DNA of 64,000 nt. It comes from Pedobacter sp. Leaf194. GTDB lineage: Bacteria > Bacteroidota > Bacteroidia > Sphingobacteriales > Sphingobacteriaceae. The notes under the pieces are model-generated. The model worked only from the letters and a program-made list of their open reading frames with translations. It did not search any database and was not told the origin of the DNA. The stretch is taken from positions 434,001 through 498,000 of the forward strand of contig NZ_LMPU01000008.1 in NCBI RefSeq assembly GCF_001423945.1. The letters are read 5' to 3'. Both the position numbers and the translations under genes were made by a program. Shown in pieces: positions 44,144 through 60,068 of this stretch (position 1 is its first letter; the number at the start of each line of letters is the position of its first letter).

Positions 44144-44728
44144 TTGATAAAAAAAATACTCAGCATTGAGGAAATTATAAAAGGCTGCCAGAAGAACGAT
44201 AACAGCTGTAAAGAAATGATGTACAAATCATTTTACGGCTACCTGATGGGTATTGTTTTGCGATATGTTAACAATAGTTATGATGGCGAAGAGCTTGTTA
44301 ATGATTGTTTCATAAAAATTTTTAAAAATATTGAAGGCTTTCAACCGCCAAATAATCCTGCAGATTTACATAAAACCTTTAAGGGTTGGATTGCCAAAAT
44401 TGCTTCGAGAACGGCAATTGACAAACTCCGTACACTAAAAAATCAATCATATGTTGATGATTTATCAGAAAGTGAACATCCGGTTAGCACGGTTTCGGTA
44501 ACGTCTGATTTAGATGTTCAGGATATTTTAAAGTTGTTAAATAACCTGCCAGATACGCAGAGACTGGTTTTTAACCTTTATGAAATTGAAGGATTTGCCC
44601 ATGATGAAATTTCGAAAATGATGAATATACCCGAAAGTTCGAGTAGAGTATATTTGACCCGGGCAAAAAATAAGCTGCGAACCTTGTATTTGAAAACACT
44701 GGTTAATTCGTATGAGAAAAATGGATAA
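44144..44728 (+). CDS. ECF RNA polymerase sigma factor
   Basis: A 194-residue ECF sigma factor from a TTG start (MIKKILSIEE as translated). Region 2: YLMGIVLRYVNNSYDGEELV and NDCFIKIFKNIEGFQ. Region 4: NNLPDTQRLVFNLYEIEGFA with the helix-turn-helix HDEISKMMNIPESSSRVYLT. It overlaps the next gene by 17 bases, and that partner carries a membrane helix, so it is probably co-regulated with it. This class in Bacteroidetes often controls surface functions, but its regulon cannot be read from the window. Confidence 0.9.
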   Translation: MIKKILSIEEIIKGCQKNDNSCKEMMYKSFYGYLMGIVLRYVNNSYDGEELVNDCFIKIFKNIEGFQPPNNPADLHKTFKGWIAKIASRTAIDKLRTLKNQSYVDDLSESEHPVSTVSVTSDLDVQDILKLLNNLPDTQRLVFNLYEIEGFAHDEISKMMNIPESSSRVYLTRAKNKLRTLYLKTLVNSYEKNG

Positions 44729-46034
44729 AGAATTAATTGACCATATAAAACATAACCTTCAGGCGCATGAAGAAACCTACACCCCTGGTGCTTGGGAGCG
44801 TTTTAATGTGCCCGAAGAAAAAAAGAAAAGAGGTATCGTTTACTGGCCGCTATGGTCTGCGGCTGCAATAATTTTGGTTGTTACGGCTTTCTTTGTCCTG
44901 CGTAAGGAAAATTCCAATCACACGAATCAAATCGTAAAAACTTCTAAATCCTTCCCTAAAAAACTAAGGAATCCGCAAGTAGAAAAATCGTTAGAAAAGG
45001 TTGCCACCGGCGATTTAACTAAGGCTTCGGCTCGGGTGGAGGAAAACAATTTAACTAGGTCGCGGAAACCGGACCTTATCGAAAACAATAATTCAGATGA
45101 TGATAAACTGCTGACTGTAAGAAAAACAGATCATGAGCTCGAAGGATACCAAACGAAAATATCCGATAATAATGTTACCGGAAATGAGGTAGCAAGTCAG
45201 TCAACATTGTCGGGTACTATTTACTCAGAAAAAATTGAATCCAGTTCTAAGGTCAAACTAGTTCTAATCAATCCGGAGAAGAAAAAAATTCCGCAGTCTA
45301 AACTGACTTTCGAACAACTTTTAGAACAAGACAGCCATCGCGACAATATTGCCAAGACCTCGAAAAATAAAGCCTTAACAAAGTGGGAGCCTGGCCTTTT
45401 TGTTGCGCCATCAATTGGGAACGATAATAAAGTAAATATGAATTATGGGTTTTCGTTATCTTACAATCTTGCCGACAAATTATCGATAAGTTCTGGAATT
45501 GCCTATGGAGCGTTAAGCACGACAACAAATCCTTCAGCCAGTAGCGAAAGCCTGAATGATGGCGCTGCAAATGCGCCGTCGGCTGCGAAGGCGGTTGCAT
45601 ATGTTAGCGCATCCAAAAGTTTGGAATCTATTAATGCAAATGTGCGGGGGATTAATATTCCTTTAGAATTGAAATATAACATAAGCAGTAAACTCTATAC
45701 CGGCATTGGGGTATCGGCACTTGCCATTACCAACAATAAACAAAACAATAATTATGTGGTTAGCAGTGCCCGGAATACAGCAGTGGCAAATACTTTTGGC
45801 ATTACAGAACAAAAAATGCTTATCGTTACAGAAAGAGTTTCGGAAGCACCGACAGAAACGAACGCTACCGACAAATTGATTGGCTTTTACAACTTCTCTT
45901 TAGGTTACAAGCAAAAAATTTCAAAGAAGAATAACTTTGCGGTCGAGCCGTTTTTGCGGCTGCCGATGAAAACGTTTTCTACCGATAAACTTAATCTAAC
46001 CAATGGTGGCATTAAATTGAAGTTCGATTTTTAA
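44712..46034 (+). CDS. Membrane protein with cytoplasmic head and outer-membrane-barrel-like C-terminus, coupled to sigma factor
   Basis: A 440-residue protein that overlaps the ECF sigma gene by 17 bases. The first about 45 residues are charged (ELIDHIKHNLQAHEETY), then comes one membrane helix (YWPLWSAAAIILVVTAFFVL), a long hydrophilic and Ser/Asn/Lys-rich linker, and a C-terminal region that reads like barrel strands (GLFVAPSIGNDNKVNMNYGF, later FAVEPFLRLPMKTFSTDKL) ending in Phe (KLKFDF). The N-terminus and context suggest an anti-sigma or sigma-regulator head, and the tail a barrel, which would make it span both membranes. Such hybrids occur after ECF sigma genes in Sphingobacteria but the mechanism is unknown. 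Confidence 0.7.
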   Translation: MRKMDKELIDHIKHNLQAHEETYTPGAWERFNVPEEKKKRGIVYWPLWSAAAIILVVTAFFVLRKENSNHTNQIVKTSKSFPKKLRNPQVEKSLEKVATGDLTKASARVEENNLTRSRKPDLIENNNSDDDKLLTVRKTDHELEGYQTKISDNNVTGNEVASQSTLSGTIYSEKIESSSKVKLVLINPEKKKIPQSKLTFEQLLEQDSHRDNIAKTSKNKALTKWEPGLFVAPSIGNDNKVNMNYGFSLSYNLADKLSISSGIAYGALSTTTNPSASSESLNDGAANAPSAAKAVAYVSASKSLESINANVRGINIPLELKYNISSKLYTGIGVSALAITNNKQNNNYVVSSARNTAVANTFGITEQKMLIVTERVSEAPTETNATDKLIGFYNFSLGYKQKISKKNNFAVEPFLRLPMKTFSTDKLNLTNGGIKLKFDF

Positions 46035-48837: not shown

Positions 48838-49935
48838 ATGAAAATTACACATACCGAAATTTTTCGCTTTAGTATCCCTATGGAACCCTTTGTTATTGCC
48901 ACAGGGACGATGCATTTTGCGCAAAATGTGCTGATTAGAATTCATACTGATAGCGGCATTCACGGTATTGGTGAATGCTCAGCCTTCCCGATGATTGTTG
49001 GAGAAACGCAGGAAACCTGCATTGCCATGGCTAAGGATTTTGCAGCGATTTTGAAGGGTAAAAATCCTTTGGAAATTCCGGAAAGGATGAATGACCTCCT
49101 CGGATATGCCGACCATAATAACACGATTAAAAGTGCTTTTGATATGGCTTTGTTCGATATTGCCGCTAAAGATGCTAGTTTGCCACTATATAAATTTTTA
49201 GGTGGAAACAAGCGCACAATAGAAACTGATATGACCATTGGGATAGACACACCTGAGGGTATGGCTAAAACCGCAATGACTTACAAAGACAAAGGCTGTA
49301 GAATTTTAAAAATAAAACTTGGTAAGCAAGTTCATGAAGACATCGAGCGGGTTAAATGTATTCGTGAGGCTGTTGGTGCAGACACAATTTTACGGCTGGA
49401 TGCCAACCAAGGATGGAATTTTGACGATGCATTATTTGCTTTAGGACAGCTGGAGCAATATAATATCGAATTTTGTGAACAGCCTATGAGAACGTGGTAC
49501 GATGACAAGCTACCCGAACTGAACGTGAATTCTCCCATTAAACTGATGGCTGATGAGAGCTGTTACAACCATCACGATGCCAGAAAATTAATTAACAGTC
49601 AATCTACTTCTTATTTAAATATTAAATTTTCAAAATCGGGCGGAATTTTAGAAGCGCAAAAAATTCATGAGGAGGCCTTGCAGACAGGCGTAAAGTGTAT
49701 GATTGGAAGTATGCTTGAGAGCCGCATCGCCTTGAGTGCTAACCTCCATTTCGCGCTTGCAAGCCCTAACATTGTATTTTTTGATTTAGACACCGCCCTA
49801 CTTGGCCATTTAGTAGATCCGGTTATAGATGGGTTAACTTATAACGGCTATTTTCTTGATGTACAAGACACACCAGGAATCGGCGCAGAAGCAGACGAAT
49901 TCTTTCTGGAAAAATGCGAAAGCTGGGTGGTTTAG
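48838..49935 (+). CDS. Dipeptide (L-Ala-D/L-Glu type) epimerase, enolase superfamily
   Basis: A 365-residue member of the enolase superfamily, muconate-lactonizing-enzyme subgroup. Catalytic positions are visible: the KIK of RILKIKLGK (first Lys of the base pair), metal ligands Asp in LRLDANQGW, Glu in IEFCEQPM, Asp in KLMADESCY, and the second Lys in NIKFSKSGG. The C-terminal FFDLDTALL region is typical of dipeptide epimerases that act on murein-derived peptides (YcjG-like). It fits the peptidoglycan-recycling theme of the region. Single gene. Confidence 0.88.
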   Translation: MKITHTEIFRFSIPMEPFVIATGTMHFAQNVLIRIHTDSGIHGIGECSAFPMIVGETQETCIAMAKDFAAILKGKNPLEIPERMNDLLGYADHNNTIKSAFDMALFDIAAKDASLPLYKFLGGNKRTIETDMTIGIDTPEGMAKTAMTYKDKGCRILKIKLGKQVHEDIERVKCIREAVGADTILRLDANQGWNFDDALFALGQLEQYNIEFCEQPMRTWYDDKLPELNVNSPIKLMADESCYNHHDARKLINSQSTSYLNIKFSKSGGILEAQKIHEEALQTGVKCMIGSMLESRIALSANLHFALASPNIVFFDLDTALLGHLVDPVIDGLTYNGYFLDVQDTPGIGAEADEFFLEKCESWVV

Positions 49936-49950
49936 TGTTGGTTTATTTTG

Positions 49951-50065
49951 TTCATTGGGCACTGGTTCATTAGTTCATTGGCCGATAGTTCATTGGGCAT
50001 TGGTTCATTAGTTCATTAGTTCATTGGGCATTAGTTCATTAGGGATTAGTTCATTAGTTTATTCG
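49951..50065. repeat. Phased short repeat of TTCATT in 8- and 15-base steps
   Basis: TTCATT occurs at 49951, 49966, 49974, 49989, 50004, 50012, 50020, 50035 and 50050, i.e. in steps of 15, 8, 15, 15, 8, 8, 15 and 15 bases. The units are TTCATTAG (8 bases) and TTCATTGGGCATTGG-like (15 bases). A further TTTATT at 50058 continues it weakly. It lies just after the epimerase stop; function unknown. The rest of 49936-50194 shows nothing else recognised. Confidence 0.8.
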
Positions 50066-50194
50066 CTTAGCAATCATTAGTTTATTGGAAATTGATTATT
50101 GGTTGCTGCGCATAAAACTTATGTTAGTGCCGGTGTCATTACTTAAGTATTGAGTGCTTTGGCTAGTGAATTATTACAATTTAAAAAATTCAAC

Positions 50195-51064
50195 TTAGCG
50201 TACGAGCATTTCAGCTAGTGCAGTGCTATCTCCGTTAAATGCATTAAAATCTACAACATGGCCTATTCCATTGATTTTGGCCTTGTCAGAATGTTGCCAA
50301 AACTTCCATCGGCTACGATCTAACCTAAGTTTAGGCTGCTAATAATGCGCAATCCAAAGTGGATACTCATCAAAATTATCCTGAAGATAATCTTCGTAAA
50401 ATTTTAAACCAGTATAAATTATTGGGCGAACTTTAGTTTTTACTTCCACATAATTTAGAAAATCAGCAAGCTCGGCCCTCATTTTCAAGGGTGAAACACC
50501 ATCAAGCGTTTCAATGTCGACAACAGGCGGCAAATCTCCTTTCTCCACATTTACAACCTGAAGAAAAAACTTCGCCTGGCTTTTTCCATCGCGTTTAGGT
50601 CTGAAAAAGTGATAAGCCCCACAAATTATTCCGGCCTTAGGTGCCTCCCGCCAGTTTCGCTGAAAATATGGATCAACAAGTAAGAGCCCTTCAGTGGCCT
50701 TGATAAATGCAAAACGAATGCTCACATCATCATCTTTCATCGATTTAACTTTTTGCCAGTTTATTTTACCCTGATAATAAGAGACATCAATACCATGAAT
50801 TGAGTATTTTTTTGGGATTTTGATATTGAAGCTCTCGTAAACCCGATAATTGGGGTCTTGTCCCCAATCTTTAACCCAACGCCAGCTTGCAACAAATCCT
50901 TTTACAACGTAGCCGTAATAAAACGGAGAGCATAAAATCAAGATTAACCCGGCAATGGCCACCTTCCATTGCGTTGAAAAAGCTTTTGACTTTTTCTTTC
51001 GCACCGGGCTTTTTCTCACGGTTGGTTTCTTTTTTACTGGCGGCATTAAATTGATTTCAGGCAC
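50195..51064 (-). pseudogene. GH25 lysozyme-family gene interrupted by an in-frame amber codon
   Basis: A 241-codon frame (51064 down to 50342) starts with a membrane helix after a K-rich N-terminus and encodes a GH25 domain: IHGIDVSYYQGKINW, FAFIKATEGL, CGAYHFFRP, VVDIETLDGV and RPIIYTGLKFY, with catalytic Asp and Glu in the VVDIE strand. It stops at TAG (50339-50341) after LWIAHY, where the family continues. The same frame then runs another 47 codons to TAA (50195-50197) and encodes the missing C-terminal part: SRWKFWQHSDKAKINGIG and HVVDFNAFNG. All GH25 features are there, so a recent nonsense change, a sequencing error or amber suppression are possible. GH25 enzymes cut peptidoglycan. Treated as a broken gene. 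Confidence 0.8.
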
Positions 51065-59429: not shown

Positions 59430-60068
59430 GAGGGGCCTCGCCCTATTGATGGTAGAAATATATCATGTTCCTCTGCAATCCCTCCAGAGGAGAGGGAAAC
59501 AACACGCGGTGATTTTAACCATTAAAGTTCAAAGCAATATCTGCAAAACCCTCTCTTTCAGGAGAGGGTAGCTACCAAATTTGCCAAACCACAAACTTTC
59601 ATAGGGTGAGGCTCTAAACCATTAGGTTCGAAGCACTACCAATTAAACCCTCTCTTTCAGGAGAGGGCAGCTACGAAATTTGCCTAACCACAAACTTTCA
59701 TAGGGTGAGGCTCTAAACCATTGGTTCGAAGCATTCCCCAATAAACCCTCTCTTTCAGGAGAGGGCAGCTACCAAATTTGCCAAACCACAAACTTTCACA
59801 GGGTGAGGCTCTAAACCATTAGGTTCGAAGCGGTCCCCGCAAAACCCTCTCTTTCAGGAGAGGGCAGCTTCCAAATTTGCCTAACCACAAACTTTCATAG
59901 GGTGAGGCTCTTTGTTCGCTACTCCGAAAAAACTCCGCTCCTCTGTGGCAAAACGCCTCAATTTCTTCGCAAAAAGCTTTCATTCCTTTACGATTAAACG
60001 TAGAACTTGCGTTTGAAAAACCCCAAAATTATCCTTAATATTGAGTTCGGTTCCCGTGTTAAAAAACC
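59430..60068. other. 639-base gap between pcrA and smc
   Basis: Contains the hairpin repeat array (59546-59910), a degenerate leading hairpin at 59480-59496 and a stretch (59433-59446) that is inverted-complementary to the repeat ends. After 59911 nothing notable is seen up to the smc start except AT-rich DNA. Confidence 0.7.
59546..59910. repeat. Four tandem copies of an about 99-bp unit with a central hairpin
   Basis: Four units start with the hairpin CCCTCTC-6-GAGAGGG at 59549, 59648, 59746 and 59845 (periods 99, 98, 99). After the hairpin each reads CAGCTACCAAATTTGCC, CCACAAACTTTCATAGG, then GTGAGGCTC with TAAACCATTAGGTTCGAAGC leading to the next copy. Copies differ by a few bases, such as CACAGGG for CATAGGG near 59800. 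Unit ends are imperfectly inverted to a sequence just after the pcrA stop, so the array may have grown from a REP-like element. Possible RNA structures, transcription or replication roles are unknown. Confidence 0.9.

Follow-up and report, generated by a model that had tools for sequence, protein, structure and literature searches.

The window, a stretch of 64,000 nucleotides, corresponds to positions 434001-498000 of contig 8 of a Pedobacter genome (G000), a 4.57-Mb assembly of 15 contigs rated 100% complete and 0% contaminated. The minus strand of the window carries a gene of the GH25 lysozyme family that is interrupted by an in-frame TAG at 50341-50339. Translation gave the order ...YPLWIAHY-TAG-QPKLRLDRSRWKFWQHSDKAKINGIGHVVDFNAFNGDSTALAEMLVR-TAA in a single frame throughout, with 47 sense codons (50198-50338) between the TAG and the TAA at 50197-50195. 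No second stop lies in between, and the frame ends at a length usual for the family. A sequence-only reading of the region had described this TAG, the 47 codons and the TAA, and the minus-strand translation bears that description out. The same reading started the gene at a GTG at 51064, which adds six residues. When the start was placed by alignment with 40 relatives, most of them began at an MPP matching the ATG at 51046. The ATG is the more likely start by this alignment, which would give a gene spanning 50195-51046 with 235 codons ahead of the TAG (50342-51046). This pre-stop part contains a hydrophobic stretch near the N-terminus, which by eye is probably a membrane anchor, followed by most of the predicted barrel.

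With the TAG entered as X, the Pfam GH25 profile (PF01183) was covered from position 1 to 180 of 180 with a score of 162.9 bits. The pre-stop part alone covered positions 1-152 of 180 with 141.9 bits, and both scores exceed the curated cut-off of 27 bits. Judged by these matches, which exceed chance, the two sides of the TAG belong to one putative GH25 gene, as had been supposed from the family-consistent look of both parts. NCBIfam profiles gave no match for the gene, its closest named relatives are from Pedobacter, and it was the only GH25 match in a genome-wide search of the window's genome. Like the GH25 muramidases with solved structures (2wag, 1jfx ["Cellosyl"], 2x8r, and 6zm8), it shares the full profile, provided that the stop is read as X, and the D-x-E motif; the closest chains by sequence are 2wag and 1jfx. 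Unlike them, the gene as written is without the last two barrel strands and has a hydrophobic N-terminal stretch. It is an interrupted relative of the GH25 family, whose working membership is only putative.

A search of 145 genus genomes, among them that of the window, matched the gene in 131. The window's genome alone was listed with a TAG inside its match, against 0 of the 130 other matched genomes. To a total of 137 extracted coding sequences, Pedobacter contributed along with the more distant Mucilaginibacter and other relatives. Many of these sequences, which came from two genome collections, are identical, and 101 are distinct. The site of the TAG was readable in 100 of the latter; the remaining one, L035, contains a stretch of N within the gene. 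At this site (50339-50341 in the window), the 100 sequences encode Tyr (80), His (19), or Asp (1), using the codons TAT (56), TAC (24), CAT (18), CAC (1), and GAC (1). No stop codon occurs at the site in any of the 100. The codon after the TAG is CAG, for Gln, and most relatives likewise have Gln at that position. The relatives continue for 34-53 residues past the site (median, 47), and the window for 47. Therefore, the family does not end at the TAG, and this rules out a natural family terminus, one of the circumstances that the sequence-only reading had named as fatal to its account.

Five further genus genomes (G035, G036, G037, G133, and G153) were listed with one TAA inside the match. In the last four, this TAA is taken to be the normal end of the gene, because the aligned protein reaches query residue 288-289 without an internal stop. 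The copy in G035 (L034, G035:C5:257799-259202) has undergone a separate change of frame close to its 3' end, in the last codons after VDFNA. The copy in G002 was split into two matches by the search and includes a stretch of N within the gene (L035 has 43 N); it is therefore uninformative on gene integrity and was dropped from the site count.

The fold description in PMC7954357 gives GH25 enzymes a (beta-alpha)5(beta)3 architecture, that is, an eight-stranded barrel with an antiparallel last strand, and places the D-x-E catalytic motif in the first half of the fold. In the window, the motif reads VVDIE and lies within the pre-stop part. Its D183 and E185 are invariant in an alignment of 41 rows, which comprises the window plus 40 of the 101 distinct relatives and leaves out the damaged L034 and L035. 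The same alignment contains 13 invariant positions after the stop: L246, F255, W256, Q257, H258, S259, D260, G266, I267, D272, F276, G278, and D279. A structure predicted from the 41 rows for the read-through protein (mean pLDDT, 84.1; pTM, 0.75) has a strand at residues 237-240, just ahead of the stop at residue 242, and two strands (255-263 and 270-276) and a helix (280-286) after it. Residues 241-250 form a loop for which the prediction is poor. The model aligned with 1jfx over residues 83-289 (Z, 25.6; rmsd, 2.0; 200 aligned) and with 2wag over residues 80-288 (Z, 25.5; rmsd, 2.1; 200 aligned), so that solved GH25 structures follow the read-through model to its end. When strands are counted from residue 89 in keeping with the description in PMC7954357, the stop would by our own assignment fall after strand 6 and remove strands 7 and 8. 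An eight-stranded barrel is complete only in the model, with the TAG taken as a residue; the gene as written does not encode one. The missing part thus belongs to the predicted barrel, as the sequence-only reading had held. According to the model, the truncated protein keeps the D-x-E motif and loses the closing part of the barrel, and because it would be without the two final strands and the final helix, it is probably unfolded or inactive.

We then considered how TAG is handled in this genome. Scoring of 150 out of 404 first-look candidates yielded 46 tRNA matches, whose anticodons were assigned by ARAGORN. None of the 46 has a CUA anticodon; with 150 of the 404 candidates scored, an odd tRNA could be missed. 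A loose pattern combining a CUA anticodon with a T-loop produced 10 hits in the genome as opposed to 17 for a backward control. One of the 10 was called tRNA-Arg(TCT) by ARAGORN and the others were not called as tRNAs, and the hits were rejected as CUA tRNAs. The suppressor tRNA that the sequence-only reading proposed to look for was thus found neither among the 46 tRNAs nor by the loose pattern. Two frames match the release-factor domain PF03462. One of them, 368 residues long, contains VPDTETQGR with a P-x-T triplet, which we take to be the mark of release factor 1, and by this sequence feature the genome has a predicted release factor 1 gene. The 47 other genes listed in the window end in TAA (33), TAG (12), and TGA (2), and the same GH25 gene ends in TAG in 75 of the 137 extracted relative sequences, duplicates included. 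TAG is common as a gene end and release factor 1 is present; thus, TAG is an ordinary stop in this genome. Neither loss of release factor 1 nor avoidance of TAG, the signs of amber suppression or TAG reassignment, was found.

The age of the interruption was approached through changes private to the window. When the window and 14 selected relatives were placed in a tree, the window branch had a length of 0.194 compared with 0.201 for its sister, L075. Pairwise synonymous distances were saturated or nearly so in most comparisons, and dN/dS values were therefore not used. Among five close sequences, the window-private changes numbered 10 synonymous and 11 nonsynonymous before the stop and 6 synonymous and 2 nonsynonymous after it, the latter two both in one codon (Fisher P = 0.24, with low power). 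The nonsynonymous share before the stop was 11 of 21 in the window versus 27 of 84 in four relatives pooled; the difference is not significant (P = 0.13), but the higher share could hint at relaxation. In the tail, the private-change counts, which are a weak test, showed neither decay nor relaxed selection following the lesion: with a conservative neutral count, selection on the tail may have been absent, at the 95% level, during as much as 62% of the private branch. The undecayed tail gives no close date for the stop and is no proof of translation beyond it. It fits a very young mutation, and it fits a base error or continued translation equally well.

A GH25 match was absent from 14 of the 145 genus genomes, 10 of which reach a completeness of 90% or more with contamination of 5% or less. 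Absence of the gene therefore seems to be tolerated in the genus. With these 14 genomes and the frame change in G035, there are precedents in Pedobacter for the gene being lost or shortened.

The explanation that we favor, with a probability of roughly two in three, is a young nonsense mutation that is private to this genome among those examined and that makes the gene a young pseudogene or loss-of-function allele. A single-copy GH25 muramidase gene, kept by most Pedobacter, would have gained a nonsense mutation at the Tyr/His position that immediately follows barrel strand 6. Release factor 1 would most likely end translation at the TAG and leave a 235-residue, probably membrane-anchored protein with the D-x-E motif kept and the last two strands and helix gone. 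A trace of full-length protein might arise by ordinary leaky termination. As expected of a young pseudogene, the disabling change is absent from the relatives examined. Young nonsense pseudogene alleles likewise show a private stop, intact surroundings, and absence of the gene from part of the genus; the case differs from them in that a second lesion is so far absent.

The main rival is an error of one base in the assembly, in which case the true codon would be a sense codon and the gene intact. TAG is one base away from TAT and TAC, the codons of 80 of the 100 relatives, the remainder of the gene is in good order, and no other genus genome was listed with a TAG inside the match. However, the assembly is rated complete and uncontaminated and comprises 15 contigs, and substitution errors are rare in a consensus of ordinary depth. 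The surroundings of the gene also argue against an error. An 80-kb stretch of a relative, G003, was compared with the window using frames of at least 90 residues with more than 45% identity, and 33 frames were matched. By their position, nine were judged to be antisense shadows of larger genes, and six of these nine had stops. The other 24 were judged to be real genes, and only the GH25 gene had an internal stop. All 23 other window genes with a counterpart in this G003 stretch (23 of the 47 listed) were free of internal stops, so such errors are not common here. We regard a base error as unlikely but as a serious contender. Alternatively, useful readthrough of the TAG by a near-cognate tRNA in a leaky context would supply a little full-length lysozyme and keep the tail under selection. 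The tail is indeed not eroded, small amounts of a wall hydrolase may be enough, and in-frame stops under purifying selection are reported by Belinky et al. 2021 (PMC7918605) to be widespread in bacterial genes and mostly short-lived. The stop considered here resembles those in being a single stop in a conserved gene with an uneroded tail; the focus of that report is on stops common to at least two species, whereas here one genome is concerned. Against readthrough, a stop conserved at the same place in relatives, the mark of programmed readthrough, was seen in 0 of the 100 readable sequences, and the following Gln codon is shared with most relatives, so that the context shows no sign of having been shaped for readthrough. 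The lack of a CUA tRNA among those found and the presence of release factor 1 point the same way.

Useful readthrough is improbable on these grounds. Recent nonsense mutation, read error, and readthrough were the right options for the sequence-only reading to have raised, but the weight that it put on readthrough is out of keeping with a site without stops in the relatives and with a genome in which TAG is a normal stop. Were readthrough true, it would add a new example to a phenomenon that is already known, because widespread in-frame stops are described in PMC7918605. A variant in which the TAG sets the dose, with leaky termination yielding a trace of anchored lysozyme beside a mostly truncated, possibly regulatory product and the tail selected through that trace, strikes us as very improbable. 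It is scarcely credible that the truncated 235-residue protein is itself functional, for example as a membrane-anchored binding protein. In such a protein, the helices at the N-terminus and the D-x-E motif would still be present, together with six of eight barrel strands (counted from residue 89), but the lost part holds the 13 positions invariant in the 41-row alignment, FWQHSD among them, and not one of the 100 readable relatives ends at the site. In appearance, the interruption is nothing out of the ordinary: a recent nonsense mutation, or else an error in one base, appears to account for it better than a novel mode of translation would.

The main consequence is for annotation: the sole GH25 lysozyme gene that the search found in this genome merits a flag as interrupted. 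If the base is real, this genome would provide a natural loss-of-function example for a lysozyme retained by most of the genus.

Several further features of the window were noted. Imperfect direct repeats built on GTTCATTAG/GTTCATTGGGCATTA occupy positions 49950-50086, between a plus-strand gene (48838-49935) and the GH25 gene. A search with 49936-50110 returned 11 further matches in the genome, of which two overlap, and in G003 the corresponding gap is only 92 bases long and contains a short piece of a similar kind of repeat. At 59546-59911, between two large plus-strand genes, a 99-base unit starting with AAACCCTCTCTTTCAGGAGAGGG is present in 3.7 tandem copies. The plus-strand gene at 44712-46034 has 58% identity to its G003 counterpart, as opposed to 84-99% for the flanking neighbors, and by this comparison seems to change fast.
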